Below are positions 15,778 through 40,602 of a DNA stretch of 43,941 nt, piece by piece. How positions within the stretch are numbered: the stretch's first letter is position 1; every line of letters starts with the position of its first letter. Source of the stretch: an uncultured Bacteroidales bacterium (lineage in GTDB: Bacteria; Bacteroidota; Bacteroidia; Bacteroidales; FEN-979); the NCBI GenBank assembly GCA_903926565.1, contig CAIYJU010000180.1, positions 1 to 43,941 on the forward strand, read 5' to 3'. The notes beneath the pieces are model-generated. The model did not search any database and was not told the origin of the DNA. It was given only the letters and a program-made list of their open reading frames with translations. A program made the translations under genes and the position numbers.

Positions 15778-17328
15778 ATGATAAGCGTAGGAATACAGCA
15801 ACTTACTCCCGACGATTTCTACAAGGTTCTTTTCCTGGATGAGAAGATTGAACTCGACCCTCAGGCGGTGGAAAAGGTGAAGGCAAACTACCAGTTTCTC
15901 AAATCATTTGCCAAAGGAAAGATAATTTATGGAATCAACACCGGCCTCGGGCCGATGGCTCAATATAAAATAGAAGGAAATAACGAACTTCAGCTCCAGT
16001 ATAACCTGATCCGAAGCCACAGCTCCGGCTGTGGCACTCCCCTTCCCGAAATTTATGCAAAGGCAACCATGCTGGCCAGGCTGAATACCTTCCTGCAGGC
16101 TAAGTCGGGCATTCATATCGAAGTATTGGAATTACTTAAAGAGCTGATAAACAGAAATATAAATCCATACATCCCCGAACATGGAGGTGTGGGTGCCAGT
16201 GGTGATCTTGTTCAGCTGGCCCACCTGGCCTTAAACCTTATTGGCGAAGGCGAGATCTGGTATCAGGGCAAATTGCAGAGCACCAGGGATGTTTTCAAAA
16301 CTGAAAAACTCACCCCTGTTAAAATGCACATCCGTGAAGGGCTGGCACTTATCAATGGCACCGCAGCCATGACCGGTATCGGCATGATCAACATCGTGCA
16401 TGCGAAAAACCTGCTCGACTGGGCTGTGCTTGCCTCTTCCATGATCAATGAGATTGTGGAGTCGTATGACGACCATTTCTCCGACGGGCTGAACAAGGTA
16501 AAAACACATTACGGGCAGAACCAGGTGGCACGGATGATGCGTTCGATCCTGGTCGACAGCAAACTTATCCGGCGCAGGGCAGACCATTTGTACAACGGGA
16601 AAACTGAAGAGGTGGAGGTGTTTACACACAAAGTACAGGAGTATTACTCACTCCGCTGTGTTCCGCAGGTACTCGGCCCGATCCTCGATACCATCCTGAA
16701 TGCAGAGAAGGTGCTGATCAATGAGGTGAATTCAACCAGCGACAATCCAATTATCGACAGCGAGGCAAAAAACGTGTTCCATGGCGGTAACTTCCATGGT
16801 GATTATGTGGCCCTTGAAATGGATAAACTCAAAATTGCCATCACCAAATTGTCGATGCTGGCCGAACGGCAGCTCAACTACCTGATGAATGACAAGATGA
16901 ACCAGAGACTCCCCCCGTTCGTCAACCTGGGTAAACTCGGATTCAACCTCGGCATGCAGGGCGCCCAGTTCACCGCCGTTTCCACTGTTGCTGAAAATCA
17001 AACACTTTGCTTCCCGATGTCGATCCACAGCATCACCAACAACAATGATAACCAGGATATTGTGAGCATGGGCACCAATGCGGCCATGATGGCCAAACGG
17101 GTGATCGATCACACATATATCGTCATGTCGATCCATGTCATCACCATCTTGCAGGCAATCGACTATATGAAGTTCAAGCCAAAGCTCTCGGCTTACTCCC
17201 GTAAGAAATTCGATGACTTACGGAAGATCGTGCCGAAATTCACGGAGGATACCACCAAATACAAGGAGATACAGCAAATAGCGAACTATATTCTTGAAAA
17301 CAAACCTAAATTCCCCCTGGGATCTTAA
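15778..17328 (+). CDS. Tyrosine ammonia-lyase (aromatic amino acid ammonia-lyase)
   Basis: This 516-residue MIO-dependent lyase forms the electrophilic cofactor from Ala-Ser-Gly at 140-142 (HGGVGASGDLVQLAHL). Active-site segments NGTAAMTGIG, GGNFHGDY and NNNDNQDIVSMG are intact. The selectivity region reads LQYNLIRSHSSG (72-83). The Ser80-His81 pair looks HAL-like, but this exact context is that of the Flavobacterium johnsoniae enzyme known to be a specific tyrosine ammonia-lyase. It should convert tyrosine to 4-coumarate, the usual starter of flexirubins and aryl polyenes. It is the first gene of block A. A histidine ammonia-lyase role is unlikely given the neighbours and no hut genes. Confidence 0.88.
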   Translation: MISVGIQQLTPDDFYKVLFLDEKIELDPQAVEKVKANYQFLKSFAKGKIIYGINTGLGPMAQYKIEGNNELQLQYNLIRSHSSGCGTPLPEIYAKATMLARLNTFLQAKSGIHIEVLELLKELINRNINPYIPEHGGVGASGDLVQLAHLALNLIGEGEIWYQGKLQSTRDVFKTEKLTPVKMHIREGLALINGTAAMTGIGMINIVHAKNLLDWAVLASSMINEIVESYDDHFSDGLNKVKTHYGQNQVARMMRSILVDSKLIRRRADHLYNGKTEEVEVFTHKVQEYYSLRCVPQVLGPILDTILNAEKVLINEVNSTSDNPIIDSEAKNVFHGGNFHGDYVALEMDKLKIAITKLSMLAERQLNYLMNDKMNQRLPPFVNLGKLGFNLGMQGAQFTAVSTVAENQTLCFPMSIHSITNNNDNQDIVSMGTNAAMMAKRVIDHTYIVMSIHVITILQAIDYMKFKPKLSAYSRKKFDDLRKIVPKFTEDTTKYKEIQQIANYILENKPKFPLGS

Positions 17329-17340
17329 ATGATAAATTCT

Positions 17341-18069
17341 ATGAAATTCGCATTGGTTACCGGTGGTTCAAGGGGTATCGGAAGGTCGGTTTCTGTTAAA
17401 CTGGCAAAGATGGGTTTTTTCGTGCTGATCAATTACCAGCAAAATCAGGAGGAAGCCGAAATCACCCTGCAACAGGTCAGGGATGCAGGCAGCGACGGTG
17501 AGCTGTTGAAATTCAATGTGGCATCGCAGGAGGAGATCGAGAAATCGCTCGGAGCGTGGCAGGCTGCTCACGAAGACGCCTACATCCAGGTACTGGTCAA
17601 TAATGCAGGCATCCGAAAAGATGCCCTGCTGATGTGGATGAAAAACGAAGAGTGGCATGATGTGCTTGACACCAACCTTCACAGTTTCCTTTATGTGACG
17701 CGCTTTCTGATCAAGGACATGCTCATTCATAAAATGGGACGGATCGTCAACATCGTCTCGTTGTCAGGTCTCAAAGGACTGCCCGGGCAGTCCAACTATT
17801 CAGCTGCCAAGGCCGGTGTGATCGGAGCTACAAAGGCATTGGCGCAGGAGATTGCAAAGAAAAATGTGACGGTGAATGCCGTGGCTCCGGGTTTTATCAA
17901 AACCGACATGACCAAAGATCTGGATGAGGCCCAGCTGAAAGCCATGATCCCCATGGGAAGATTCGGCAAACCGGAAGAGGTGGCCGCCATTGTCGGGTTC
18001 CTGGCTTCTGAGGAGGCTTCGTATATCACCGGGAGTGTGATCAATGTAAACGGGGGGCTTTATACTTAA
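17341..18069 (+). CDS. 3-oxoacyl-ACP reductase (FabG-like SDR)
   Basis: This NADPH-dependent short-chain dehydrogenase of about 242 residues should reduce the beta-keto group in each elongation round. Visible are the cofactor motif TGGSRGIG near the N-terminus, NNAG at about 85, the catalytic Ser in VSLSG, Tyr-x-x-x-Lys in YSAAK, and the C-terminal GGLYT end typical of FabG. The ATG at 17341 gives the standard MKFALVTGG beginning. An in-frame ATG at 17329, directly after the lyase stop, is also possible. It is the only ketoreductase seen in the cluster. Confidence 0.9.
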   Translation: MKFALVTGGSRGIGRSVSVKLAKMGFFVLINYQQNQEEAEITLQQVRDAGSDGELLKFNVASQEEIEKSLGAWQAAHEDAYIQVLVNNAGIRKDALLMWMKNEEWHDVLDTNLHSFLYVTRFLIKDMLIHKMGRIVNIVSLSGLKGLPGQSNYSAAKAGVIGATKALAQEIAKKNVTVNAVAPGFIKTDMTKDLDEAQLKAMIPMGRFGKPEEVAAIVGFLASEEASYITGSVINVNGGLYT

Positions 18070-18128
18070 TTCAAAAATTAAAATGCAAAAGCAAATGTCA
18101 AATATTGAACCGCTTTTGATCTTATAAT

Positions 18129-19352
18129 ATGGGAAGAGTTGTAATCACCGGCATGGGCATCTATTCCGTTATCGGAAAGAATCTTGCAGAAGTTGAAGAT
18201 TCCTTGCGCAATGGGCGTTCAGGAATTATTTTTGACCCTGTAAGAAAAGAGATGGGATTCCGCTCGGCTTTGACTGGTATGGTTGAAAGGCCGCAGCTTA
18301 AAGGAGTTCTTGACCGGAGGATGAGGGTTGGCATGCCGCTTCAGGGCGAATATGCCTACGTCAGCACGGTGGAAGCGTTGAAAAATGCAGGTCTTGACCA
18401 GGCATACCTGGATGCGAATGAAGTTGGGATTATTTTCGGGAATGACAGCTCAGCGCTTCCTGTGGTGGAATCGGTTGACATACTCAGGCAACAGAAAGAC
18501 ACCATGATGATCGGATCTGGATACATTTTCCAGGCGATGAATTCGACTGTTTCGATGAATCTTTCTGTCATCTTCAAACTGAAAGGAGTCAATTTCACCC
18601 TCAGCGGCGCCTGTGCAAGCGGTTCCCATGCCATCGGCATTGGTTACCTGCTCATCAAGCAAGGTCTTCAGGATATGATTATATGCGGTGGCGCCCAGGA
18701 GATCAACCCGGAGTCAACTGCAAGTTTTGATGCCCTGAACGCCTTTTCAACCAGGGAATCGGAACCAACCAAAGCGTCCAGGCCTTTTGACCGTGACCGT
18801 GACGGACTTGTGCCCAGCGGTGGTGCAGCAACGGTAATTATCGAAAGCTACGAATCTGCCATGAAACGGGGTGCCACGATATACGGAGAGGTGATTGGTT
18901 ATGGATTCTCCTCCAACGGAGAACACATCTCCATGCCCAATGTGGACGGCCCGGTCCGCGCCATGGAAAAGGCAATTCTCGATGCGGGCATCAAACCTTC
19001 TGAAATAGATTACATCAATGCACACGCCACATCTACCCCGATGGGTGATAAAAACGAAGCAAACTCCATCGATCTGATCTTTGGCGCCTCCAGGCCCATG
19101 GTAAGCAGTACCAAATCCATGACCGGCCATGAGATGTGGATGGGGGGCGCAAGCGAGGTGATCTATTCGAGCCTGATGATGAACCACGGCTTTGTGGCAC
19201 CAACCATCAACCTCGAAAACACCGATGAAACCACCGCAAAGCTCAACCTCCCGCGAATTGCAATGCCCTGTGAAATCAATACATTCCTCTCAAATTCATT
19301 TGGATTCGGTGGCACTAACTCATCACTGATCATCCGAAAAAAATCGCGTTGA
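18129..19352 (+). CDS. Beta-ketoacyl-ACP synthase (FabB/FabF-type), complete triad
   Basis: This 407-residue condensing enzyme has all catalytic residues: nucleophile Cys162 in LSGACASG, His299 in NAHATSTPMGD and His334 in SMTGHEMWMGG, plus the C-terminal NSFGFGGTNSS. It condenses an acyl primer with malonyl-ACP. It stands apart from the other two ketosynthases of the cluster, which each have a KS-like partner gene, so it may handle initiation or work as a homodimer. A 59-bp AT-rich gap separates it from the reductase, and a promoter-like element lies at its 3' end. Confidence 0.9.
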   Translation: MGRVVITGMGIYSVIGKNLAEVEDSLRNGRSGIIFDPVRKEMGFRSALTGMVERPQLKGVLDRRMRVGMPLQGEYAYVSTVEALKNAGLDQAYLDANEVGIIFGNDSSALPVVESVDILRQQKDTMMIGSGYIFQAMNSTVSMNLSVIFKLKGVNFTLSGACASGSHAIGIGYLLIKQGLQDMIICGGAQEINPESTASFDALNAFSTRESEPTKASRPFDRDRDGLVPSGGAATVIIESYESAMKRGATIYGEVIGYGFSSNGEHISMPNVDGPVRAMEKAILDAGIKPSEIDYINAHATSTPMGDKNEANSIDLIFGASRPMVSSTKSMTGHEMWMGGASEVIYSSLMMNHGFVAPTINLENTDETTAKLNLPRIAMPCEINTFLSNSFGFGGTNSSLIIRKKSR

Positions 19353-19380
19353 TTTTACAACAAAAAAATCCTTATTTTTG
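19349..19380 (+). promoter_or_regulatory. Internal promoter before the ACP gene (TTG-N21-TATTTTTG)
   Basis: TTG at 19349-19351 overlaps the ketosynthase stop region and is followed after 21 bp by TATTTTTG (19373-19380). The transcript would start about 14 nt before the ACP start codon. It would allow separate expression of the ACP-acyltransferase-radical SAM part. Confidence 0.45.
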
Positions 19381-19399
19381 CATCGGTTAACCAAAACAC

Positions 19400-19651
19400 A
19401 TGATGCAAAACGATGAGATTATCAGGAAAATAAACCAGTTCCTGATCGATGAAATTGAAATTGATGAAACCCAGATAAAACCAACTGCCAGTCTGAAAAA
19501 AGATCTTGGCATTGACAGCCTTGATTTTGTTGACTTGTTTGTTATTGTTGAAAAGAAATTCGGCTTCAAAATGAAAGCGGAAGAGATCGCTGAGGTGACC
19601 ACTTTAGATGATTTCTATACCTATGTCATTAACCGCATCAATCCTAACTAA
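19400..19651 (+). CDS. Acyl carrier protein (first of two)
   Basis: This 83-residue four-helix carrier protein has the phosphopantetheine attachment motif DLGIDSLDFVDL, with Ser40 as the modified residue. Helix II and III sequences (DFVDLFVIVEKKFGFKMKAEEIAEV) are typical of type II ACPs. It carries the growing or starter acyl chain for the neighbouring ketosynthase and acyltransferase. A second, divergent ACP lies in block C. The specificity of the two for KS pairs or acyltransferases is unknown. No phosphopantetheinyl transferase is in the window. Confidence 0.92.
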   Translation: MMQNDEIIRKINQFLIDEIEIDETQIKPTASLKKDLGIDSLDFVDLFVIVEKKFGFKMKAEEIAEVTTLDDFYTYVINRINPN

Positions 19652-19656
19652 CCCGG

Positions 19657-20577
19657 ATGTCAGCATGGAAAGGCAAGACCCGCGGAGGGGTGCTGGGATA
19701 TAAGATATTTGTCTGGACCCTGAAAAACCTGGGGTTGCGTTTCGCATATTTCCTCCTTTCATTTGTCGTAGTTTATTTTGTTGCTGCCTCCGGGAATGCA
19801 TTTACCTCCATATTCCGTTTTTATCACCAAGTTTTAAAATACAGCCGTTTTAAATCTTTTGTCAGCATTTATCGCAATTACTACATATTCGGGCAGATTC
19901 TCCTTGATAAAATTGCCATGCTTGCCGGTTTTCAGCAAAAATTCACCTTCGATTTTGAAGGGGAAGAGCACCTTCGGAAAATGACCGATGGAGGATTGCT
20001 GATCAGTGCACACATCGGCAACTGGGAAATTGCAGGACAATTATTGAACCGTCTTGAAAAGCGCATCAATATTATCCTGTTTGATGCAGAGCACCAGCGT
20101 GTCAAGGGCTATTTGTCAGATGTGATGAGTACCCGCAACGTGAATTTCATTGTCATCAGGGATGATTTTTCACACCTGCTTGAGATCAGGCAGGCGTTGG
20201 CCGACAAAGAGATCGTTGCCATGCACGGCGACCGGTTTCTTGAAGGAAACAAGACATTGGTGCTCGATTTTATGGGCAAACCGGCCGCATTCCCGATCGG
20301 ACCGGTGAATATCGCCGCTAAATTCAGGGTTCCTGTTTCATTTGTATTCGCGGTGAAGGAAACCAGCAGTCATTACCACTTTTATGCAACGCCATTGCAG
20401 CAGGTGGCCTTTACAACAAATCTGAAGCAGCGGGAAGTAAATTTCCGGGGTGTTCTGGAAGTATATACGGCAAAATTCGAAGAGATCCTGCGTAAATATC
20501 CGCTGCAATGGTTTAACTATTATGATTTCTGGAAACTTCCGGAAGCCATGCCATTCGTGCCTCAACCAAAACCATGA
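19657..20577 (+). CDS. LpxL/HtrB-like acyltransferase
   Basis: This 306-residue membrane-associated acyltransferase of the lysophospholipid/lipid A family has the HxxxxE catalytic motif (His119-Ile-Gly-Asn-Trp-Glu124 in SAHIGNWEIAG) and a hydrophobic N-terminal segment (about 28-48). A GDRFLEG motif at about 190 is the second family block. It would transfer the acyl group from ACP to a lipid or sugar acceptor, as similar enzymes do in aryl polyene clusters. It starts 5 bp after the ACP gene and overlaps the radical SAM gene by 4 bp. It could also acylate a different lipid, since the acceptor is not visible from sequence. Confidence 0.85.
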   Translation: MSAWKGKTRGGVLGYKIFVWTLKNLGLRFAYFLLSFVVVYFVAASGNAFTSIFRFYHQVLKYSRFKSFVSIYRNYYIFGQILLDKIAMLAGFQQKFTFDFEGEEHLRKMTDGGLLISAHIGNWEIAGQLLNRLEKRINIILFDAEHQRVKGYLSDVMSTRNVNFIVIRDDFSHLLEIRQALADKEIVAMHGDRFLEGNKTLVLDFMGKPAAFPIGPVNIAAKFRVPVSFVFAVKETSSHYHFYATPLQQVAFTTNLKQREVNFRGVLEVYTAKFEEILRKYPLQWFNYYDFWKLPEAMPFVPQPKP

Positions 20578-21938
20578 CCATGGCGGGAAAAAAGCTACTC
20601 TTCGTTTCAGCAAACAGGCATGCCACCCCCTACCCGGTATATCCGCTGGGTATCTCCTACCTCAGCACGTATCTGAGAAAACGGCTGCCCGATTATGAGA
20701 TCAGGATCTTCGACTTCAACCTGCACACACCTGAATCCTTCAAAGCGTACCTGCTTGAATTTCAGCCCGATTATATCGGTCTTTCGTTAAGGAACGTGGA
20801 TGATGTGAATTTTTACAGCCAGGAGAGTTTTATCAGCGGATATAAGATGATTGTGGACATCGTTCGGGAAACCTCAACATCCATGCTTATCATTGGTGGT
20901 TCGGCTTTTTCAATATACCCGCGCGAACTGTTTGCCTTTTTTAATCCTGATTATGCGATTCATGGCGAAGGAGAAGAGAGCCTGTTCAATTTTCTCGTCA
21001 GTGTTGATGCGGGAAAACCTGACCTGTCCGTCGAGGGACTGGTATATCATGACGGCAATGAAATCAGGGTCAACGGGCGGAAAAGTTTCATCAAGACCCC
21101 CGATCTTAATTTTGACACCGGGTTGCTCGACTTTTACTGGGACAAGGCAGGCATGGTGAATGTACAGACCAAAAGAGGCTGTCCGTATAATTGCATCTAT
21201 TGCACCTACCCCCTTATTGAAGGGCATCATGTTCGAACTCTTGATCCGGACAAAATCGTATACACCCTTCGGCAACTTTATGAAAAGCATAACATCGACT
21301 ATGTTTTTTTTACTGACTCAGTATTCAACATCAGCAATAAATTCAACATTGAACTTGCCAATAAGCTGATTGAATCAAAGTTGCCTGTGCACTGGGGGGC
21401 CTATTTCTCCCCCCACAATCTTACTCTGGAGAATTTGAAATTATTTGCCCTGGCAGGATTGACACACATTGAATTCGGAACGGAATCGATGTCTGACACT
21501 ACCCTGAAAAAATACGGGAAACATTTTGACGTAGAGGAGGTTGTGCGTGTTTCAGATTATTGCAACCAGGCCGGCATCTATTTTTGCCACTTCATGATCA
21601 TTGGCGGATATGGCGAAACCGAAGAAACCATCAATGAGAGCTTTGAAAATTCAAAACGCATTGAGAATACGGTTTTCTTCCCGTTCATCGGTATGCGGAT
21701 CTATCCGGGCACAATATTGCATAAAATTGCCATTGAGCAGGGAATTGTCCGGGAGACAGATACCTTACTTGAGCCTGTATATTATGTTGCCCCAGGCATC
21801 AATTATGAAACCCTCAAGGAGCGTGCAGATCAAACCGGCCGGAGGTGGGTCTTTCCCGATGAAGACGTGGCAACCGTCATGAACCGCATGCGCAAGCGAA
21901 AACGTAAAGGATCTTTATGGCACCATTTGAAAAAGTAA
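20574..21938 (+). CDS. B12-binding-domain radical SAM protein
   Basis: This 454-residue protein has an N-terminal Rossmann-like cobalamin-binding domain (about 5-150; SLRNV and IIGGSAFS segments) and a radical SAM domain from about 190, with the [4Fe-4S] cysteines Cys203, Cys207 and Cys210 (CPYNCIYC). The DxHxxG motif that supplies the cobalt ligand in mutase-type domains is absent, as is common in class B radical SAM enzymes. Such enzymes often methylate unreactive carbons, and relatives occur in lipid biosynthesis loci. The substrate here could be the acyl chain or aryl head. It overlaps both neighbouring genes (4 bp and 22 bp). Confidence 0.88.
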   Translation: MTMAGKKLLFVSANRHATPYPVYPLGISYLSTYLRKRLPDYEIRIFDFNLHTPESFKAYLLEFQPDYIGLSLRNVDDVNFYSQESFISGYKMIVDIVRETSTSMLIIGGSAFSIYPRELFAFFNPDYAIHGEGEESLFNFLVSVDAGKPDLSVEGLVYHDGNEIRVNGRKSFIKTPDLNFDTGLLDFYWDKAGMVNVQTKRGCPYNCIYCTYPLIEGHHVRTLDPDKIVYTLRQLYEKHNIDYVFFTDSVFNISNKFNIELANKLIESKLPVHWGAYFSPHNLTLENLKLFALAGLTHIEFGTESMSDTTLKKYGKHFDVEEVVRVSDYCNQAGIYFCHFMIIGGYGETEETINESFENSKRIENTVFFPFIGMRIYPGTILHKIAIEQGIVRETDTLLEPVYYVAPGINYETLKERADQTGRRWVFPDEDVATVMNRMRKRKRKGSLWHHLKK

Positions 21939-22333
21939 ACATACCGCAGAAGCCGCCGATGGTCATGGTTGACAGGCTGGTTGAGATCGTCGGTAAAATG
22001 ACGGTAACCGCTTTCCTGATCATGGAGGACAATGTGTTTTGTGAAGATGGCACCTTCAGGGAACCCGGACTGATAGAGAACATGGCGCAGACAGCCGCTG
22101 CCGGTGTGGGTTCCAGGCCCGGGACTGAGTCAGACAAGGCACCTGTTGGTTTTATCGGGGGCATCAGGAACCTTAAAATCTATGACCTGCCGAAAGTCGG
22201 GCAGGAGATCATCACAAGGGTTACCGTGATGCACGAAATCTTCGACGCCACCATTGTTCAGGGTGATGTTTTTCTGAACGACCAGCTAATTGCATCATGC
22301 GAATTGAAAATTTTCTTAATAAAAGAAGAGTGA
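21917..22333 (+). CDS. Hotdog-fold 3-hydroxyacyl-ACP dehydratase (FabZ/ApeI-like)
   Basis: This 138-residue hotdog protein has the FabZ-like pattern IPQKPPMVMVDRL (9-21) and EPGLIENMAQTAAAG (49-63). In FabZ the dyad is His in PHRYPF and Glu in PGVLxxEAMAQ. Here Glu54 is kept but the His position is Gln11. It probably dehydrates 3-hydroxyacyl-ACP to build the polyene, but the substitution makes a reduced or partner-dependent activity possible. It overlaps the radical SAM gene by 22 bp and the next gene by 1 bp. It is the only dehydratase-like gene in the window. Confidence 0.85.
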   Translation: MAPFEKVNIPQKPPMVMVDRLVEIVGKMTVTAFLIMEDNVFCEDGTFREPGLIENMAQTAAAGVGSRPGTESDKAPVGFIGGIRNLKIYDLPKVGQEIITRVTVMHEIFDATIVQGDVFLNDQLIASCELKIFLIKEE

Positions 22334-22755
22334 TGGGAAATCCAGCAGATGAAACAAACGACAAGTCAACAGGCAATAATGAGTTGATCTACACCTATAA
22401 CCGGGAGCTTTTTTATCATTTCGATAAAGAAAAAGGGTTTACACAGAAAGTGGACTATCAGAACCCGGATAACCAGGTGATCATCAAACAGAGTTGGGAC
22501 GTTGCAGCGCAAAGGCTGGAGGAGGTGAGGCAATTGGTTTCAATTGGTAAACTGAGTCCCATCGCCTATTACATGGAAAAAATACTCATGGAGGTTCCCA
22601 TGCTTGCCGCCTATATGGAGATCTCCAAATGGCGGGTTAAAAGGCACATGAAGAGTAAAGTCTTTAAGAAGCTGAAGCCGGAAACCCTTTCCAGATATGC
22701 TGAAGTCTTTGGCATTCCTGTGGAACAGCTGACAAACACTGATATTTTCAGGTAA
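22333..22755 (+). CDS. Small HTH-like protein, cluster paralogue 1
   Basis: I do not recognise a named family for this 140-residue protein (ATG at 22333 overlapping the dehydratase stop as TGATG). The C-terminal half shares the pattern SPIxYYMEKxL...W-R-V-K-x-H...V-F-K-x-L-K...T-L-x-x-Y-A-x-x-F-x-I...Q-L with the protein at 32238-32633. The last 60 residues resemble an XRE-like helix-turn-helix (ISKWRVKRHMK, LSRYAEVFGIPVEQL). It may be a DNA-binding regulator or an accessory factor for the acyl-ACP machinery. An upstream ATG at 22297 is less likely. Confidence 0.72.
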   Translation: MGNPADETNDKSTGNNELIYTYNRELFYHFDKEKGFTQKVDYQNPDNQVIIKQSWDVAAQRLEEVRQLVSIGKLSPIAYYMEKILMEVPMLAAYMEISKWRVKRHMKSKVFKKLKPETLSRYAEVFGIPVEQLTNTDIFR

Positions 22756-24443: not shown

Positions 24444-24446
24444 CTG

Positions 24447-31011: not shown

Positions 31012-31200
31012 AAAAAGAGGTGATTTTAGCACTTGTTTAAGGTCAGGAAAGGGTTGTTACAGGACAGTTAACAAGATTCATTCTACATTAATAAATCTGA
31101 AATACAACGCTTTACATTTTCATCATTAAAAACAGGTGAAGATGCAAACTTAAGCAAAACTTTCAAGGTGTCTGAGGCAGAAATACATAATATTTATGTG

Positions 31201-32233: not shown

Positions 32234-32237
32234 TAGC

Positions 32238-32633
32238 ATGGACGAAAGTCAGAATCCTGTATATAAAGACAAAGCTCATGGCCAGTTTCGCGAACTTTCT
32301 TACTCATACAAAGATGGAGGAAATTTCGATCAGACTGTCGGATTCCATGACCAGGTTGACCGTTTGGTACTGCAACAGGCCTGGGATCTTTTTCATGAGC
32401 GTATAGAAGCGGCAAAGCAACGCGTTCTTGCCGGCGAAGTCAGCCCCATCGTGTATTACATGGAAAAAAACCTGCTTGACCCTTTAAATCTCTCGATGAT
32501 GGCAGGATTTTCAGTGTGGCGCGTGAAATGGCACTTCAGACCCGGAGTTTTTAAACGGTTGAAAGAACCAACACTCCAAAAGTATGCAGCTGCATTTAAC
32601 ATCACCTTAGACCAGCTTAAAAAAGTTGATTAA
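32238..32633 (+). CDS. Small HTH-like protein, cluster paralogue 2
   Basis: This 131-residue protein is related to the one at 22333-22755. Both have SPIxYYMEK, a WRVKxH helix, VFKRLK/VFKKLK, then T-L-x-x-Y-A-x-x-F and a final Q-L. The C-terminal 60 residues look like an XRE-type helix-turn-helix, but no experimental family is known to me. Its place between two BtrH-like genes (4-bp and 13-bp gaps) suggests it acts with them, as an adaptor or a local regulator. The shared YYMEK stretch might be a protein-contact site (inference). Confidence 0.72.
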   Translation: MDESQNPVYKDKAHGQFRELSYSYKDGGNFDQTVGFHDQVDRLVLQQAWDLFHERIEAAKQRVLAGEVSPIVYYMEKNLLDPLNLSMMAGFSVWRVKWHFRPGVFKRLKEPTLQKYAAAFNITLDQLKKVD

Positions 32634-32646
32634 CTAATTATTTTTC

Positions 32647-33672: not shown

Positions 33673-34424
33673 TGTCCCGGCAGCCCATCATTGAAATCAG
33701 GGAACTGACTAAAATTTATAAGGGAGCTGAAGAGCCGGCAGTGAATTCAATTTCTCTCGACATCTTCCCGAATGAAATCTTCGGATTGCTCGGACCGAAC
33801 GGCGCCGGTAAAACCACCACGATTTCCATCCTGTGCGGATTGTTCCCGGCAACGAAAGGAAGTGTAATGATAGACGGAATCGACAGTCATACAAACCTTG
33901 AAAAGATCAAACAGATCATCGGGGTGGTTCCCCAGGACATTGCCCTCTACCCTACCCTTACCGGCCGCGAAAACCTTACGTTCTTCGGCAACATGTATGG
34001 CATTTACGGTTCGGAACTGCGCGACAGGATCAACCACTATCTCAGTGAATTCGGTTTGGAAAAACATGCAAACAAAGTTGTGGGCAAATACTCCGGAGGA
34101 ATGAAGCGCAGGGTAAACCTGATTGCAGGATTGCTTCACGGCCCCAAGATTCTCTTTCTGGATGAGCCCACCGTTGGCATTGATGTTCAGTCGCGCCTGG
34201 TAATTCTTGAATATCTCAAAGAGATCAACAAGAAAGGTGTTACCATCGTTTATACATCCCACTACATGGAGGAAGCTGAAAATCTTTGCAACAGGGTGGC
34301 GATCATTGACAGGGGAAATATCATTGCACTTGGCAATCCAAAAGAGTTGCTGGAAGGGAAACCAGAGTTTAAAAACCTGGAGAACATATTCATCCACCTC
34401 ACCGGTAAAGACATGAGGGACTAA
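33672..34424 (+). CDS. ABC transporter ATP-binding protein
   Basis: This 250-residue ATPase has Walker A GPNGAGKTT (41-49), a Q-loop in VVPQDIALYPTL, signature YSGGMKRR, Walker B ILFLDEP and the D-loop VGID. It belongs to the drug/lipid export group that pairs with ABC-2 permeases, and the permease follows one base later. Within the biosynthetic operon it is likely to export or flip the product or an intermediate. Its relation to the MMPL exporter (alternative or sequential route) is unknown. Confidence 0.92.
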   Translation: MSRQPIIEIRELTKIYKGAEEPAVNSISLDIFPNEIFGLLGPNGAGKTTTISILCGLFPATKGSVMIDGIDSHTNLEKIKQIIGVVPQDIALYPTLTGRENLTFFGNMYGIYGSELRDRINHYLSEFGLEKHANKVVGKYSGGMKRRVNLIAGLLHGPKILFLDEPTVGIDVQSRLVILEYLKEINKKGVTIVYTSHYMEEAENLCNRVAIIDRGNIIALGNPKELLEGKPEFKNLENIFIHLTGKDMRD

Positions 34425-34425
34425 T

Positions 34426-35727
34426 ATGAGAAAATATTTGTCGGCATGTCGCAAAGAGTTGCTCCTGCTCATCCGGGATAAATCAGGCCTGGCCATGCTT
34501 TTTATCATGCCGGCTGTTCTGATCCTGATCTCTTCCATGATGCAGGAATTTGCCTGGGGTTCTCTTGCCAAAGATTCAAGCATCCCGGTCTTGTTCGTTG
34601 ACAATGATCACGACAGCCTGGGAACGAAGGTCAAAAGTGGCTTCAGTGGTTCCGATGCATTTCAGATCATTGACAGCCTCGACCACAAACCCCTCACCAC
34701 CGTCATGGCCAAAAACGCCGTAAAAAAAGGTGATTATCTCATCGCAATCGTCGTTCCCAAAGGCGCAACCGCAACCATGCGGGCCAACGTCCGTCTTTCG
34801 GTGGCAAAAGTACTCGCAGGCTTTGGAATGGGCAACCCGATGCTGGTCAATGGAATTTCATTCAGGGATTCCATCAATGTGACCATCTTTTTTGATCCGA
34901 CAGTTAAGAAAGCATTTAAGAATGCAGTGATCAGCTCAGTAAGGGAAAACTACTACAGGATTCAGACTGAATGGGTGTTTCAGAACTTCAACCAGGAGAT
35001 TGCCATCCAAATGCCAATGTATAAACCACCAAAAGAGGCGTTCAAAGAAATTCTTAAATTCAGGGAGGAATATCCTACCTACCGGGAGGTTGAACTGATC
35101 CCGAATTCATCACAGCACAATGTTCCGGCCTGGACAATTTTTGCAATGTTTTTCATTGTGATCCCCCTCACGCAAAGCCTGATACAGGAACGTGAAGGAG
35201 GAAGCCTGTTCAGGCTGCTTACCATGCCCGTCTCCTATATGACCCTGGTAATGGCAAAAGTTGGTGTTTACCTTGTAGTTTGTCTGACACAAACTGCAGC
35301 GATGCTGGTGGCCGGGATCGTTTTACTTCCGCTTTTCGGCCTGCCCATGCTGGTTATCGGTGATGAAATCCCCGCATTGTTCGTCATGACACTTATGGTT
35401 TCAATGGCAGCGGTCGGATATGGCCTGATGGTCGGAACGGTTTTCAAAACCCATCAGCAGGCCGCAGCATTCGGTTCTATTTCGGTGATCATCCTTGCGG
35501 CGATCGGGGGCCTTTGGGTTCCCATCTACCTGATGCCGGCATCCATGCGCGCTTTATCCCTGCTCAGCCCCATGAATTGGGCAATTACGGGCTATTACAG
35601 CATTTTTCTGCGGGGCGGAGATTTATGGCAGGTCGCACCTCAGGCGATCAAATTGCTGCTGTTCTTTTTATCCACTGTGATCATCACAGCGGTTTATCAT
35701 AAATATAAAAGACCTGTGAACAGTTAG
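34426..35727 (+). CDS. ABC-2 type permease
   Basis: This 433-residue membrane subunit has one N-terminal helix (about 20-38), a large periplasmic domain of about 190 residues, and five or six C-terminal helices starting near 235. IQEREGGSLFRLLTMPVSYM (about 250-270) is the ABC-2 coupling segment. It forms the channel for the ATPase immediately upstream. The size and layout match the permeases found in flexirubin and aryl polyene loci. It is followed after 2 bp by the thioesterase gene. Confidence 0.9.
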   Translation: MRKYLSACRKELLLLIRDKSGLAMLFIMPAVLILISSMMQEFAWGSLAKDSSIPVLFVDNDHDSLGTKVKSGFSGSDAFQIIDSLDHKPLTTVMAKNAVKKGDYLIAIVVPKGATATMRANVRLSVAKVLAGFGMGNPMLVNGISFRDSINVTIFFDPTVKKAFKNAVISSVRENYYRIQTEWVFQNFNQEIAIQMPMYKPPKEAFKEILKFREEYPTYREVELIPNSSQHNVPAWTIFAMFFIVIPLTQSLIQEREGGSLFRLLTMPVSYMTLVMAKVGVYLVVCLTQTAAMLVAGIVLLPLFGLPMLVIGDEIPALFVMTLMVSMAAVGYGLMVGTVFKTHQQAAAFGSISVIILAAIGGLWVPIYLMPASMRALSLLSPMNWAITGYYSIFLRGGDLWQVAPQAIKLLLFFLSTVIITAVYHKYKRPVNS

Positions 35728-35729
35728 CT

Positions 35730-36143
35730 ATGGAACTCTCTGATCGGAAAGAAATCATCGTAAGGTTCTCGGAAGTTGACTCCATGCGCATCGTTTGGCA
35801 TGGCAATTATCTTAAGTACTTTGAAGATGGCAGGGAATCATTCGGCCTCAAATACGGGCTGGGATATCTTGATGTTTACAGGCATAATGTGATGATCCCG
35901 TTGGTCAGGATAAATTGTGACTATAAACGGCCATTGGAATGCGGTGATACTGCGGTTGTGGAAACCCGATTTATCTCAAGCGAAGCCGCTAAAATTATGT
36001 TTGAATATACAATTTACCGGAAAAGGGACATGGAGGTATCTGCAACCGGAACATCCACACAGGTTTTCCTGACTCCGCAGGGCGAGCTTTTACTCACTGC
36101 CCCGGAATTTTTCATCGGATGGAAAAAGAGATGGGGAATATAA
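35730..36143 (+). CDS. Hotdog-fold acyl-ACP/CoA thioesterase
   Basis: This 137-residue 4HBT-type hotdog enzyme has the family motif EVDSMRIVWHGNYLKYFEDGRESF, with the likely catalytic Asp17 and the conserved His24 and Tyr27. Such thioesterases in aryl polyene clusters release or proofread acyl chains on ACP. It may free the finished polyene acid or clear stalled chains. It lies in the middle of block C with 2-bp and 11-bp gaps to its neighbours. Confidence 0.85.
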   Translation: MELSDRKEIIVRFSEVDSMRIVWHGNYLKYFEDGRESFGLKYGLGYLDVYRHNVMIPLVRINCDYKRPLECGDTAVVETRFISSEAAKIMFEYTIYRKRDMEVSATGTSTQVFLTPQGELLLTAPEFFIGWKKRWGI

Positions 36144-36154
36144 CTAATCATGGC

Positions 36155-37327
36155 ATGAAACCAGTTTACATCCTGAACGACAATATCATTACATCCCTCG
36201 GATTCACAACCGCTGAGAATGCTTCTTCATTGGACAGCGGAATAATCGGCATCCGCACAATCAATGATCAGGAGTTTTACCCTGGCCAGATTCAGCTGTC
36301 GCTGGTTGACACAGTGCAACTGGATCTGAAATTTTCGGCTGTTTTAAAAGTTTATCAAAAAAACATACCGGCTGACTCCTTTACGCGGCTCGAAAAGTTA
36401 TTTATTCTCTCCATTCATGATGTCATTAAAGACCATATTGTTATAGCAAAAAATGCCAGGACACTGCTTGTCATTTCAACAACAAAAGGCAACATTAATT
36501 TGCTTGAAAACCGCTTTAAAGCCATTTTTAGTCATAAAAGGCTCTATCTATGGGAATTAGGAAGGATCATCAGGCAGTTTTTTGGTTTTGTAAATACGCC
36601 GGTGATTATCTCGAATGCCTGCATTTCGGGCGTTGTGGCCGTGATGACTGCCACCAGGTTTCTTCAGTCAGGAGCATTCGACCATGCTGTGGTAACCGGT
36701 GGTGACATTGCATCAGAATTCGTGATATCCGGCTTCCAGTCATTCCAGGCACTCAGTACCAAACCGTGTAAGCCATTTGACCTCAACCGTACCGGCTTGT
36801 CACTTGGTGAAGGATGCGGGACAATGCTCCTCTCAACAATCTCCGGAACTGCTGAAGTATCTCCTGTGCGGATCGCAGGTGCTGCTACCACCAACGATGC
36901 CAATCATATATCAGGCCCTTCCCGTACCGGGGAAGAACTTAGCCATGCCATTAAAACGGTCATGAAACAGGCCATGGTTGAACCCGGGCAAATCAGCTAC
37001 ATTTCTGCTCATGGTACTGCAACATCATTCAATGATGAAATGGAATCAAAAGCTGTTGAGCTCAGCGGACTTGCGCATGTTCCGTTAAATAGTTTCAAAG
37101 GATACTGGGGACACACGCTTGGGGCTGCGGGACTTGTTGAGTCTGTTGCCGCTGTATTTTCACTCAGAAACAATACACTTTACCGTTCGGCCGGTTTTGA
37201 AATCCCCGGGGTTTCAGCTCCGGTAAATGTAATCACGACAAACCACCCAGCGTCGTTAACCAGCTGCATTAAGACCGCCTCAGGTTTTGGAGGATGCAAT
37301 GCAGCAATTATATATCAGAAAGACTAA
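36155..37327 (+). CDS. Beta-ketoacyl-ACP synthase, paired with a Cys-less partner
   Basis: This condensing enzyme of about 390 residues has an intact triad (numbered from ATG 36155): Cys156 in SNACISG, His286 in SAHGTATS and His320 in YWGHTLGAAG. The middle segment KPFDLNRTGLSLGEG is typical. The N-terminus MKPVYILNDNIITSLG fits the family, so I chose this ATG over the in-frame one at 36119, which would overlap the thioesterase gene. It is followed one base after its stop by a short ketosynthase-like gene lacking the nucleophile, suggesting a KS/chain-length-factor heterodimer as in ApeO/ApeC of aryl polyene systems. Confidence 0.87.
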   Translation: MKPVYILNDNIITSLGFTTAENASSLDSGIIGIRTINDQEFYPGQIQLSLVDTVQLDLKFSAVLKVYQKNIPADSFTRLEKLFILSIHDVIKDHIVIAKNARTLLVISTTKGNINLLENRFKAIFSHKRLYLWELGRIIRQFFGFVNTPVIISNACISGVVAVMTATRFLQSGAFDHAVVTGGDIASEFVISGFQSFQALSTKPCKPFDLNRTGLSLGEGCGTMLLSTISGTAEVSPVRIAGAATTNDANHISGPSRTGEELSHAIKTVMKQAMVEPGQISYISAHGTATSFNDEMESKAVELSGLAHVPLNSFKGYWGHTLGAAGLVESVAAVFSLRNNTLYRSAGFEIPGVSAPVNVITTNHPASLTSCIKTASGFGGCNAAIIYQKD

Positions 37328-37328
37328 A

Positions 37329-37979
37329 ATGAACCGTATCATCACTGCATACAGTGTTCTTCATGACAACAAGGTCATCGTGAATGGCAGGCTCCTGTTT
37401 TATCAGGAAAATATTACTAAATTTGCAGACTTTGTGAAGGCAGTCTTCAAGCAGGAGCAATTTTCGTACCCCAAGTTTTACAAAATGGATTCCATAAGTA
37501 AACTTGGTTTTCTGGCTGCTGAACTGGTTTTAAAAGAAAAGACAATTGCAGGTTACAGCCCTTTGGAAGTGGGTATGGTAATGTCTAATTCAAGTTCAAG
37601 TCTTGACACAGATATTACTCATAACGAAACGATTAACAACCGTTCAGCCTTTTTCCCAAGTCCTTCTGTATTTGTTTACACCCTTCCCAATATCATCATC
37701 GGGGAGGTTTGTATCAGGCACCGGATCAAAGGTGAAAATGCCTTTTTGATCTCTGAGACATTCGATGGCAACCTGCTTTGCGATTATGTCGATGAGTTAT
37801 TCAACAACGAGCGGGTGGCAGCCTGTTTGTGCGGATGGGTCGAAGTATTGGGTGACAGGAACACTGCGATGGTGGTGTTGGTTGAAAATTCAGAACAAAG
37901 CCAGGTCAGCGAAAGATCCGGTTTAAAGCCGATGCTTTTTAATGCAGAGAATCTCAATTTTATTATGAAACGTAACTGA
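37329..37979 (+). CDS. Truncated ketosynthase-like protein (ApeC/chain-length-factor type)
   Basis: This 216-residue protein from ATG 37329 covers only the N-terminal half of a ketosynthase. SISKLGFLAAELVL, VGMVMSNSSSSLDTD and FVYTLPNIIIGEVCIRHRIKG align with the region leading to the active-site Cys, but the elbow reads ISETFDG, with Phe145 in place of Cys. The His-containing C-terminal half is missing. Short Cys-less proteins of this kind act as chain length factors in aryl polyene clusters (PF13723 type). It probably dimerises with the complete ketosynthase encoded just upstream. Confidence 0.82.
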   Translation: MNRIITAYSVLHDNKVIVNGRLLFYQENITKFADFVKAVFKQEQFSYPKFYKMDSISKLGFLAAELVLKEKTIAGYSPLEVGMVMSNSSSSLDTDITHNETINNRSAFFPSPSVFVYTLPNIIIGEVCIRHRIKGENAFLISETFDGNLLCDYVDELFNNERVAACLCGWVEVLGDRNTAMVVLVENSEQSQVSERSGLKPMLFNAENLNFIMKRN

Positions 37980-37988
37980 ACTGATATT

Positions 37989-38243
37989 ATGGATGAATTG
38001 ATTTTAAAATTAAAGAAAGAGGTCATTGAGCAATTAAACCTGGAAGAGACCACGCCGGAGGATATCAATCCTGATTCACCATTATTTGGTGAAGGCCTTG
38101 GCCTCGATTCTATTGATGCACTTGAACTGATTGTTTTGCTTGAGAAAAATTACGGAATTAAGATAGAAGATCCCAAGGATGGTAAGAAAATTTTCTTCTC
38201 CATCCGTTCCATGGCCGAATACATCACAGAGCATAAAAAATAA
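37989..38243 (+). CDS. Acyl carrier protein (second of two)
   Basis: This 84-residue ACP has the phosphopantetheine site GLGLDSIDALEL, with Ser41. Helix III has an inserted DPKDGKKIF stretch and an Ile/Met-rich face that differs from the first ACP, so it is not a simple copy. The longer loop before the site (EGLGLD) resembles ACPs of Bacteroidota flexirubin loci. Placed between the two ketosynthase pairs, it is likely the elongation carrier, while the first ACP next to the LpxL-like enzyme may serve loading or transfer (inference). Confidence 0.92.
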   Translation: MDELILKLKKEVIEQLNLEETTPEDINPDSPLFGEGLGLDSIDALELIVLLEKNYGIKIEDPKDGKKIFFSIRSMAEYITEHKK

Positions 38244-38249
38244 TCCCCG

Positions 38250-39497
38250 ATGCCGCAGCGGATATTCATCACCGGGTATGGCATCATTTCAAGCATTGGA
38301 CACAATTCAGGGGAGAACCTCTCCTCGCTGCTCCAGTCAAGACCCGGACTGGGGAGGATTCGTCATGTCGATACCCTTCTCAAAGATGAGCTGCTCGTTG
38401 GCGAAGTTAGTTGCACACATGATGAACTTATTTCCCTCGCAGGAATCGACGCAGCTGACGGCTACTCAAGAAATGCCTTGCTGGGTATCATTGCTGCGCG
38501 GGAAGCCTTTGCTCATGGTGGTCTTGATAAACACCACGATCTGAAAACCGGGTTGATCTCTGCAACTACAGTCGGAGGAATGGATCGCAGCGAACGTTAT
38601 TACCTCGATTTCCTTAGTAACAACTCCCGCAATGCCTATATAGATTCCTACGATTGTGCCGACAGTACTGAGAAAATCGCCAGGTTGCTGGGGATTCATG
38701 ATTTCGTAACCACCATCAGCACGGCCTGCTCTTCAGCAGCCAATGCCATCATGCTTGGAGCAAGAATGATTCGCAGCGGCCGCCTCGACCGTGTGCTGGC
38801 CGGGGGGTGTGAATCACTCACGAAATTTCACCTCAATGGGTTCAATGCACTTAAAATTCTTGACAAGGAACCCTGCAAACCATTTGATCAGCACCGTGCT
38901 GGCATCAACCTTGGAGAAGGCGCAGCCTACCTTGTTTTGGAGTCGGAATCTGGTCTTGCAGTGACGGGCAATACGCCAATTTGTGAACTTGCAGGCTGGG
39001 GCAATGCATGCGAAGCATTTCACCAGACAGCATCCTCGCCGGATGGCATCGGTGCTTACCTTGCCATGAACGCAGCCCTCTCGATGTCGGGTCTTGAGCC
39101 GGCAGCAATTGATTATGTAAATGCGCATGGTACCGGTACCGACAACAATGATGTATCAGAAGGCAGAGCACTGGAAAGGCTTTTCAGTAAAAACATGCCC
39201 AGGGTCAGTTCAACAAAGCCATTCACAGGACATACCACCAGCTGTGCCGGTTCAATAGAAGCCATTTTGTCGGTGTTGTGCCTGGAACATCAGGTAATCT
39301 GGCCAAATCTGAATTTTAAGGAGCAAATGCATGAACTCTCTTTCTCCCCGGTTGAAGAACTTTTGACAACCATACCAGTAAATGTGGTTATGTCAAATTC
39401 TTTTGGATTTGGCGGTAATGATACCTCTTTGATTTTCAGGAAAGTAAATAACAATAATGATACCTCATCCCCTGCACCCCTTCTCCTTAGGGAGTAG
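38250..39497 (+). CDS. Beta-ketoacyl-ACP synthase, complete triad, second pair
   Basis: This 415-residue condensing enzyme has Cys160 in STACSSAAN, His293 in NAHGTGTDNND and His328 in PFTGHTTSCAG, all intact. GGCESLTKFHLNGFNALKILD and KPFDQHRAGINLGEGAA are standard KS segments. The normal C-terminus is NSFGFGGNDTSLIFRKV. The last 15 or so residues are Asn-rich and then read into a palindromic repeat that supplies the stop codon. A Cys-less ketosynthase-like gene follows, so this is probably the second KS/partner pair of the cluster. Confidence 0.9.
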   Translation: MPQRIFITGYGIISSIGHNSGENLSSLLQSRPGLGRIRHVDTLLKDELLVGEVSCTHDELISLAGIDAADGYSRNALLGIIAAREAFAHGGLDKHHDLKTGLISATTVGGMDRSERYYLDFLSNNSRNAYIDSYDCADSTEKIARLLGIHDFVTTISTACSSAANAIMLGARMIRSGRLDRVLAGGCESLTKFHLNGFNALKILDKEPCKPFDQHRAGINLGEGAAYLVLESESGLAVTGNTPICELAGWGNACEAFHQTASSPDGIGAYLAMNAALSMSGLEPAAIDYVNAHGTGTDNNDVSEGRALERLFSKNMPRVSSTKPFTGHTTSCAGSIEAILSVLCLEHQVIWPNLNFKEQMHELSFSPVEELLTTIPVNVVMSNSFGFGGNDTSLIFRKVNNNNDTSSPAPLLLRE

Positions 39498-39514
39498 GGG
39501 ACGGGGGTTGAGGT
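39462..39514. repeat. 53-bp REP-like palindrome over the ketosynthase stop codon
   Basis: CCCCTTCTCC (39477-39486), loop TTAG, GGAGTAGGGG (39491-39500) form a 10-bp stem with one T-T mismatch. Outer arms ACCTCA (39462-39467) and TGAGGT (39509-39514) and mostly paired C-rich/G-rich strands between extend it to 53 bp about the same centre. The TAG stop lies in the right arm. Confidence 0.65.
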
Positions 39515-39537
39515 TATTTAGCTAATTCAACCGGAGG

Positions 39538-40602
39538 ATGGCATTTATAAACGGCATTGGTATTATTTCCCCGCAACGGACAGCGGATTCAACAGCTTTT
39601 CTGTCGGATGTAATGGAATATACAGCAGATTACCTGACGTGTATTGAGCCTGCATACAGAACCTTTATTGATCCGCTCCAATCGCGGCGAATGAGCAGGC
39701 TGATGAAAATGGGAATTGCCTCGGCAAAACTTTGCATGGCTGAATCAGGTGTTGAAATGCCTGATGCAATCATAACCGGGACCGGGCTCGGAAGTGTTGA
39801 GGATACTGAAAAAATTCTCGGGGAGATCACCAAAGAAGAAAGATTCCTCAACCCTACCCCGTTCATTCAATCTACCTATAACACCATAAGTTCACAGGTG
39901 GCAATTCAACTGAAATGTCACAGTTACAACTCAACTTACGTTCATCGTACTTTTTCGTTTGAGAGTTGCCTGCTCGACGGACTCATGCAATTGGAGGAAA
40001 AATCAGCAACAAATTTCCTTGCAGGGACCATTGATGAAATGACCATGAACCATCTTCAAATTACCCGCCGTGTCGGGCAATGGAAGATGGAACCCGTTAA
40101 CAACCTGTCGCTGAAAGATGTAAAAACTCCCGGCGCCCTTGCCGGAGAAGGCGCAGCTTTCTTTATGATGGGTGCAGAAAGGTCCTCATCGACGTATGCT
40201 GAATTAACTGATGTAGCAACCTGTTATAACCTCAACGGGTCGTTTGCCTCCGCAGAATTCCTGCCGGGTTTCCTTGCAAAAAACGGATTGTACCCTGCAG
40301 ATATTGACATCGTTCTTTTGGGCGTGAACGGGGATTGCAGCAACGATCCAATCTATATGCAATTTGCTGATCAGTTGTTCCCCGCCGCTGCACAAGCCTG
40401 GTTCAAACACCTTTGCGGGGAGTACCATACTGCTGCCGGCTTCGGCCTTTATGTTGCAGCAAATATCCTGAAAAACCAGGTCTGTCCTGAGGTTTTAAAA
40501 TTATCGGCCAAAAAACCTGTACGATTAAAAAACATCCTGATTTACAATCACTTCAGGAACATTAACCATTCGTTTATATTGATCCGGGGGTGCTATGAAT
40601 AA
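39538..40602 (+). CDS. Ketosynthase-like protein lacking the active-site Cys (chain-length-factor-like)
   Basis: This 354-residue protein has an overall ketosynthase fold pattern: FINGIGIISPQ at the start, ITGTGLGSVEDTEKILGE and NPTPFIQSTYNTISSQVAIQL. The nucleophile elbow reads HRTFSFESC (137-145) instead of STACASS, so no Cys lies at the expected position (Cys144 is out of register). The first catalytic-His block is LLGVNGDCSND, without His, while GEYHTAAGFG keeps the last one. It is therefore not a normal condensing enzyme and is most likely the partner of the ketosynthase at 38250. Its last 8 bases overlap the next gene. Confidence 0.82.
   Translation: MAFINGIGIISPQRTADSTAFLSDVMEYTADYLTCIEPAYRTFIDPLQSRRMSRLMKMGIASAKLCMAESGVEMPDAIITGTGLGSVEDTEKILGEITKEERFLNPTPFIQSTYNTISSQVAIQLKCHSYNSTYVHRTFSFESCLLDGLMQLEEKSATNFLAGTIDEMTMNHLQITRRVGQWKMEPVNNLSLKDVKTPGALAGEGAAFFMMGAERSSSTYAELTDVATCYNLNGSFASAEFLPGFLAKNGLYPADIDIVLLGVNGDCSNDPIYMQFADQLFPAAAQAWFKHLCGEYHTAAGFGLYVAANILKNQVCPEVLKLSAKKPVRLKNILIYNHFRNINHSFILIRGCYE

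Follow-up and report, generated by a model that had tools for sequence, protein, structure and literature searches.

A flexirubin-type aryl-polyene cluster with a B12 radical SAM enzyme in the position of DarA and DarB in an uncultured Bacteroidales bacterium

We analyzed a pigment cluster on contig CAIYJU010000180.1 (C180) of an uncultured Bacteroidales bacterium (GCA_903926565.1). The window is this one entire contig (43941/43941 bases), and its source genome is a 210-contig draft of 4.69 Mb and 93.84% completeness. The cluster (15778-40602) resembles flexirubin loci, in which an aryl polyene is esterified with a dialkylresorcinol made by DarA and DarB. Flexirubin changes color in alkali and is used as a chemotaxonomic marker. 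Here, a B12 radical S-adenosylmethionine (SAM) enzyme occupies the position of these two proteins.

Gene content of the cluster

Genes are arranged in three blocks on the forward (15778-22755), reverse (22785-31032) and again forward strand (31229-40602), with intra-block gaps of at most 59 bp and often overlapping frames. A first-pass annotation, made from the sequence alone, had described these transcription blocks. Their gene content and coordinates hold and the pigment cluster is real. NCBIfam flexirubin/dialkylresorcinol equivalog models scored above cut-off for FlxA, FlxB, LolA2, LolB2 and two DarH proteins in the window.

The first block starts with the tyrosine ammonia-lyase (TAL) FlxA (15778-17328; NF053541, 830.6 bits, cut-off 700), which would provide the 4-coumarate starter, and the ketoreductase (KR) FlxB (17329-18069; NF053542, 402.4 bits, cut-off 340). 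These are followed by the ketosynthase (KS) KS1 (18129-19352; Pfam KS N and C domains), acyl carrier protein (ACP) 1 (19400-19651; PF00550, 44.6 bits), an LpxL-like acyltransferase (19657-20577; PF03279, 38.6 bits) and the B12 radical SAM enzyme in the darA-darB position (20574-21938; TIGR04072, 415.1 bits, cut-off 360), which carries a CPYNCIYC motif (CxxxCxxC). The block ends with a FabZ-like dehydratase (DH; 21917-22333), which has a weak FabZ score of 33.1 bits and is homologous to the DH after DarB in 17 DarAB loci, and DarG-family protein 1 (22297-22755; NF053536, 102 bits, cut-off 70; NF053545, a narrower model, stays under its cut-off with 109.9 of 170 bits).

The reverse-strand block encodes a C45 autoproteolytic acyltransferase/hydrolase (22785-24443; NF040521, 194.9 bits, cut-off 85), a CrtI-like flavin oxidoreductase (24447-25955; CrtD/CrtI models below cut-off, best 97.2 bits), an MMPL exporter (25948-29796; PF03176), LolB2 (29793-30392; NF053540, 83.7 bits, cut-off 60) and LolA2 (30367-31032; NF053544, 196.8 bits, cut-off 125). 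The PlsC-like acyltransferase (PF01553) and methyltransferase (PF13649) of the first-pass annotation are present as domains, but instead of being separate genes they are fused with MMPL in one 1282-aa protein.

The third block, on the forward strand, encodes two BtrH-related acyltransferases, DarH1 (31229-32233; NF053550, 415.7 bits, cut-off 300) and DarH2 (32647-33672; 398.8 bits), on either side of DarG2 (32238-32633; NF053536, 113.7 bits, cut-off 70; below NF053545 with 113.1 bits, cut-off 170). The small proteins at 22297 and 32238 had been left unnamed; both belong to the DarG family. A structure model of DarG2 (pLDDT 76.6) has a low-confidence N-terminal hairpin and a confident, all-helical C-terminal part. 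Downstream lie an ABC ATPase (33672-34424; PF00005), an ABC-2 permease (34426-35727; PF12698), a 4HBT thioesterase (35730-36143; PF13279), KS2 (36119-37327; PF02801/PF00109), a chain-length-factor-like KS partner (37287-37979; fabF, 16.8 bits only), ACP 2 (37989-38243; PF00550, 41.3 bits), KS4 (38250-39497; PF02801/PF00109) and another KS partner (39538-40602; PF13723, 37.3 bits). Inspection by eye of the five KS-like sequences located the active-site Cys in KS1, KS2 and KS4 only, whereas the partners at 37287 and 39538 are Cys-less at that site, in agreement with the three complete ketosynthases and two partners first described. The partner at 37287 is 37% identical to a homologue in the matching position of the Patiriisocius locus L129.

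The DarA-DarB slot and its neighbors

Neither a coumarate ligase nor a phosphopantetheinyl transferase (PPTase) had been visible to the first-pass annotation. The window contains neither, but both occur elsewhere in the genome, so their absence carries no meaning: the coumarate-CoA ligase FlxY is encoded on contig C67 (NF053551, 702.3 bits, cut-off 520), and the PPTases are an AcpS-type gene (C157) and a 240-aa frame that also matches PF01648 (C11). A genome search of the kind suggested at the time thus returns a ligase and PPTases, while the one suggested for darA/darB returns none. Chitinophaga pinensis is described as carrying its flx and dar genes at separate loci (PMC3992019). Lack of darAB in one window is thus not odd in itself and, for this reason, DarA and DarB were searched for genome-wide. 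Profiles built from 10 Flavobacteriaceae for DarA and from 11 sources for DarB (10 Flavobacteriaceae, 1 Aureispira) were run on 30 FlxA-bearing genomes, 15 of the window's group and 15 others. Profile searches found neither protein in the window or in the source genome. In the window's group, DarA was found in 0/15 genomes and a weak DarB-like match in 5/15 at E <= 1e-10 (best 7e-17), with none in the other 10. Nine of the 15 other genomes contain both DarA and DarB, three of them titled Bacteroidales (G023, G024, G026); two have a DarB-like frame without DarA (G005, G025) and four have neither (G007, G027, G028, G033). Across 43 genomes from 8 genera of the window's family, 32 of which are >=90% complete and <=5% contaminated and 37 of which contain FlxA, DarB over cut-off and DarA (E <= 0.001) were each found in 0/43. 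The 15 group genomes overlap these 43 (e.g. G017 and G058 under other handles), and the two sets are not independent. The absence of DarA and DarB proposed for the window thus extends to its genome and to the 43 family genomes searched.

Some further observations concern these searches. The DarB-like domains without DarA score 385 bits in a 629-aa frame (G005:C12:89591-90697) and 350 bits in a 658-aa frame (G025:C36:13312-14415) and could possibly represent a third solution for the acceptor. The DarA match G023:C18:10011-10919 contains one in-frame TGA, and this copy may be broken or misassembled. FlxA loci with none of DarA, DarB, DarG, DarH or radical SAM in the locus were seen in Flavobacteriaceae (L053, L055, L056, L059-L063, L065, L070, L074, L076, L079) of the genera Gelidibacter, Winogradskyella, Christiangramia, Gramella and Salegentibacter; in three of their genomes (G027, G028, G033) DarA and DarB matches are nil genome-wide. 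Three FabH-type PF08541 genes of the source genome (C157, C15, C174) were considered as DarB and rejected, as tblastn with the DarB reference at 1e-4 matches none of them; the C174 gene adjoins PreA and the C157 one resembles ordinary FabH. NF053537 had been guessed to represent DarA, a guess that was dropped because the model belongs to another family.

We compared gene order in 63 FlxA loci taken from genome contigs. All 17 DarAB loci (16 records, since one record contributes both of the like copies L042 and L043) show the order LpxL-DarA-DarB-DH, while 11 of the 13 radical SAM loci including the window (10 of 12 related loci) show LpxL-radical SAM-DH. The two exceptions are L017, which is rearranged, and L026, in which LpxL was not detected. 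L067 and L068 are near-identical. DarAB and a slot radical SAM enzyme were found together in none of the 63 loci. The slot frame overlaps that of LpxL by 4 bp and that of DH by 22 bp, which makes it part of the core operon. TIGR04072 scores over cut-off in 14/15 genomes of the window's group compared with 0/15 of the other FlxA genomes; in the fifteenth, G022, pieces of a match lie on different contigs, and G008 and G030 contain weaker relatives. A tryptophan C-methyltransferase is the nearest solved relative of the slot enzyme, followed by AprD4, so methylation is one reaction it may catalyze. According to the part of a preprint covered here (PMC13142503), non-methylating chemistry is known for few B12 radical SAM enzymes, and those (BchE, OxsB, HpnJ, PbsB and a ladderane synthase) all catalyze ring formation or rearrangement; BchE is active anaerobically. 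In two genomes (G040:C11 and G065:C23; L172-L175), LpxL and the slot enzyme share a single frame of 776 and 759 aa, respectively, a fusion that would link the radical SAM enzyme functionally to the cluster. One locus titled Alphaproteobacteria (L028) bears the Bacteroidales cluster with an FlxA almost identical to that of L027, and probably stems from a mislabelled or contaminated metagenome-assembled genome.

DarG and DarH were counted in the 54 FlxA loci with a right flank of 9.3 kb or more, leaving out loci with short flanks or partial FlxA (L018, L020, L021, L028, L030, L045, L051, L066, L078). DarH is present in 17/17 and DarG in 16/17 DarAB loci, DarG in 9/9 and DarH in 8/9 radical SAM loci, and neither in any of the 28 loci without DarAB and radical SAM. 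Operons of dar genes unlinked to flx likewise keep DarH: L107 reads DarB-DarG-DarH, L138 DarA-DarB-DH-DarG-DarH-ABC-ABC, and L139 DarA-DarB, then DarH-ABC-ABC. Because DarG and DarH track either DarAB or the radical SAM enzyme, and DarH follows DarAB also where it is unlinked to flx, the slot enzyme sits inside a dar module without DarA and DarB. Residues C14, H127 and D143 are invariant in 12 aligned DarH sequences, and we infer that they are the catalytic Cys, His and Asp. The first-pass annotation had taken the B12 radical SAM enzyme and the BtrH pair as signs of a head-modified aryl polyene linked to an amine or lipid. The BtrH pair does not point to an amine-linked head, since BtrH-like DarH accompanies all 17 DarAB loci, the three unlinked operons and the Azoarcus dar cluster (PMC3949708). 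As normal dar components, BtrH-like enzymes are no argument against a flexirubin, while the radical SAM replacement does argue against one. That the product is "not a classical flexirubin" is therefore still likely, given that DarAB is absent and a B12 radical SAM enzyme fills its slot, but the BtrH pair lends this no support.

The C67 cassette and its ketosynthase III

Beside FlxY, C67 encodes the third DarH of the genome (327 bits against a cut-off of 300) and a DarG-like protein that stays below its cut-off (54 against 70 bits), together with an ABC permease, ACP, O-methyltransferase and sulfotransferase. The contig also encodes a cassette of a FabA-like dehydratase, a 4HBT thioesterase, two crotonase-fold enoyl-CoA hydratases (ECH), a ketosynthase III (KSIII), an HpnJ/BchE-like B12 radical SAM enzyme, a 3-hydroxyacyl dehydrogenase (3HCDH), a haem-binding protein, a KS, an ACP and a malonyl-transferase-like acyltransferase (AT). 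Radical SAM enzymes on C67 number four: the HpnJ/BchE-like one, a second TIGR04072 relative (330 bits, below cut-off), an HpnR-like one and a fourth. The sulfotransferase-family protein (PF13469, 110 bits; G000 C67 28548-29639, L128:8548-9639) lies between the ACP and FlxY beside the third DarH, and has a 43% identical homologue next to DarH3 in G356, a genome of another family.

In relatives, this second conserved cassette belongs to the same supercluster as the window's genes. Both halves form one supercluster in five relatives from four genera (G040, G060, G061, G065, G071). There, FlxA, the KS genes and the KSIII cassette follow one another on a single strand, and the two additional radical SAM genes, where the stretch includes them (G040, G071), are encoded on the opposite strand. 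Of the 32 family genomes with both FlxA and KSIII, 10 carry them on a shared contig and in the same orientation at a distance of 21-44 kb, namely 1/15 in the window's genus (G057) and 9/17 in other genera. KSIII counts in the family were obtained with the DarB model and are a lower bound. In a second family, f98, one 1.28-Mb contig of G356 carries FlxA, a radical SAM gene between LpxL and DH, FlxY and the KSIII cassette. Stretches beginning with LpxL in G272 and with the radical SAM gene in G172 agree with it, and DarAB was found in none of these three stretches, to which the f98 search was confined. Of 393 genomes sampled from the order, 18 contain KSIII, and these belong to 7 families. In an FlxA tree, which left out L030, L043, L068 and L078, the window's family forms one group (18 rows, 100/98) and f98 is not placed, so that one or two origins are possible.

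The C67 KSIII has its best NCBIfam match in the StlD/DarB family with only 103 bits (cut-off 450), followed by a second family model with 85 bits (cut-off 550), and its best PDB match by sequence is StlD (5gk0, 51 bits). For tree and alignment, 20 chosen KSIII from seven families, 11 DarB and 7 FabH-type sequences were used (L084, L087, L098 and L121 gave no row). KSIII (100/99) and DarB (99/98) each form one group, and a joint branch separates both from the FabH-type sequences (100/100), although the branches leading to KSIII and to DarB are each very long (about 2.5 changes per column) and the tree program issued a long-branch warning. All 20 KSIII keep the active-site Cys, while the DarB residues His297, Asn332 and Glu152 are replaced in 20/20 by Asn, Tyr and Ser/Gly/Asn, respectively. 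The same replacements occur in 32/32 distinct sequences (43 frames reduced to 32). DarB keeps all three residues in 11/11, and FabH-type sequences keep His and Asn in 7/7. The C67 protein thus lies below both cut-offs and lacks the complete Cys-His-Asn site of the StlD/DarB family, and with His, Asn and Glu replaced, a plain DarB role is doubtful. A DpgA-type or HMG-CoA-synthase-type KSIII was ruled out by the best matches to StlD/DarB. The two ECH hint at a beta-branching cassette, a candidate that was likewise rejected as the KSIII is not HMG-CoA-synthase-like.

Proposed pathway and rival explanations

The cluster shares much with the flexirubin clusters of Flavobacterium johnsoniae and Chitinophaga pinensis: TAL, KR, KS/partner pairs, ACPs, DH, thioesterase, LpxL-like protein, LolA/LolB, the MMPL fusion, CrtI, C45 and DarG-DarH-ABC, with FlxY here in the genome. 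For this comparison, gene order was taken from Patiriisocius (L038+L129) and the genes of the two named species from the part of PMC3992019 covered. Unlike in those clusters, DarA and DarB were not found, a B12 radical SAM enzyme sits in their slot, and a TE-ECH-ECH-KSIII-radical SAM-3HCDH-KS-ACP-AT cassette (TE, thioesterase) is added. The first-pass annotation also proposed a likeness to gammaproteobacterial aryl-polyene (APE) loci. The arcuflavin system of Azoarcus BH72, a xanthomonadin-dialkylresorcinol hybrid, similarly has its polyene genes in two unlinked clusters and a BtrH-like protein plus ABC transporter with its dar genes, but it uses a chorismate instead of a tyrosine starter and has DarA and DarB, and the portion of its gene table covered lists no radical SAM enzyme (PMC3949708). 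The "ladderane" type II fatty-acid synthase clusters of anammox bacteria and Desulfotalea combine FabF paralogues with radical SAM enzymes and phytoene-desaturase-like oxidoreductases, and a phenylacetyl-CoA-ligase-like protein and a glycosyltransferase are also listed in the part of PMC2649909 covered. The slot enzyme itself matches TIGR04072, "rSAM_ladder_B12". This likeness is one of gene content by description; TAL, DarG and DarH set the present cluster apart, and nothing points to ladderanes. As for StlD/DarB ketosynthase-cyclases, the C67 KSIII is related by tree and best match but differs in scores and site residues as described above. No paper combining "flexirubin" and "radical SAM" was found among the open-licence papers searched. 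For the enzyme joining the flexirubin polyene to resorcinol, the part of PMC3992019 covered offers only a guess, FlxW.

Taken together, we consider it probable that the locus encodes an aryl-polyene pathway of the flexirubin type whose DarA-DarB (dialkylresorcinol) branch has been replaced, yielding an aryl-polyene ester with a non-DarAB acceptor. The polyene branch is intact, with FlxA, FlxB, KS/partner pairs, ACPs and DH in the window and FlxY on C67, and the companion genes of DarA and DarB are retained (DarG, DarH, ABC ATPase and ABC permease). Assignments of coumarate starter, polyene assembly, DarH acyltransferase and outer-membrane export are by homology only. According to this scheme, 4-coumaroyl-CoA would be extended to an aryl-polyene acyl-ACP, from which DarH, with its conserved Cys, His and Asp, would transfer the polyene onto a hydroxyl of a lipid acceptor. 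The acceptor would be built without DarB and DarA by the ECH/KSIII/dehydrogenase cassette and finished by the B12 radical SAM enzymes through ring formation, oxidation or C-methylation, none of which would need O2, and the MMPL, LolA, LolB and ABC parts would carry the pigment to the outer membrane. The predicted finished molecule is probably new. The FlxA starter enzyme, FlxY (in the genome, not the window) and the type II KS/KR/DH/ACP polyene machinery of flexirubin biosynthesis were all found, whereas DarA and DarB making a dialkylresorcinol were looked for and not found; we therefore do not class the pathway as a flexirubin one, although it would work like it. More tentatively, at least two families of uncultured Bacteroidales may make a new class of aryl-polyene lipids without oxygen, with an acceptor ring formed by B12 radical SAM enzymes and a His/Asn-less KSIII relative (non-decarboxylative or acyl-transfer chemistry) and DarH still carrying out esterification. 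Lake record names of relatives such as "LacPavin_0419_WC70L" would fit an oxygen-poor habitat.

Several points weigh against the replaced acceptor branch. Chemistry is known for no member, and neighborhood is not proof of a shared product. Loss of DarAB alone is not unique, as four of the 15 other FlxA genomes lack both proteins and two have a DarB-like frame only, and several Flavobacteriaceae have FlxA without DarAB and without any radical SAM; the unusual part is the replacement of DarAB rather than its loss. In the window's genus, FlxA and KSIII share a contig only in G057 among the 15 genomes with both. Fragmented assemblies account for this in part; in G058, however, the contig continues for about 61 kb past FlxA and KSIII is located on a different one. 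Since both genes are common in the family (FlxA in 37 and KSIII in 37 of 43 genomes; both in 32, KSIII only in 5, FlxA only in 5, neither in 1), their co-presence shows little. Further, the KSIII cassette occurs without visible FlxA in stretches from five families: in f13, f40 and f120 its neighbors are glycosyltransferase, MMPL and CrtI genes with C45, in f47 radical SAM, AT, KS and dehydrogenase genes, and for f28 no comparable close neighbor was recognized.

These findings leave room for other explanations. A true flexirubin could still be made if the divergent KSIII did the job of DarB (cyclohexanedione formation) and a radical SAM enzyme the aromatization of DarA, comparable to oxygen-free BchE versus AcsF. 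The grouping of KSIII with DarB against FabH-type sequences, its best matches to the StlD/DarB family and StlD 5gk0, and the retained DarG and DarH are consistent with this, and ECH and 3HCDH could provide the enoyl and 3-oxoacyl partners. However, the grouping rests on very long branches, and the loss in all KSIII of the three residues that all DarB keep makes this explanation unlikely. We regard as still less likely an aryl polyene that is free or linked to a lipid and lacks a special acceptor; the radical SAM enzyme would then only C-methylate or oxidize the polyene or its ring, and the KSIII cassette would make an unrelated lipid. The methionine-derived ring methyl of known flexirubins (PMC3992019, part covered), the tryptophan C-methyltransferase as nearest solved relative, FlxA genomes without any DarAB and KSIII cassettes without visible FlxA all speak for it. 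It does not account well for the window keeping two DarG and two DarH when the 28 loci without DarAB and radical SAM have neither, or for the KSIII cassette being co-directional with the flx genes in five relatives. Finally, darAB could be present but hidden in an assembly gap of the incomplete 210-contig draft. This is very improbable given its absence from 43 family genomes, most of high quality by the thresholds above, the sequenced slot filled by a radical SAM gene with overlapping frames, and the single-contig superclusters in five relatives and in G356. If the replacement of the DarAB branch is correct, the ester step is uncoupled from resorcinol formation in a lineage with DarG and DarH but without DarA and DarB, so that each can be tested, and TIGR04072 enzymes gain a defined pathway context.

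Outside the cluster, positions 2-5821 on the reverse strand encode a separate exporter set of two ABC-2 permeases, two ABC ATPases, HlyD and an outer-membrane efflux protein, which is cut by the contig end. At the other end, a PNGase-F-like, laminin-G protein with a type IX secretion sorting signal (40595-43939) is likewise truncated by the end of the contig, and its frame shares 8 bp with that of the last KS partner; a PNGase gene also comes after the cluster in loci L132 and L136.

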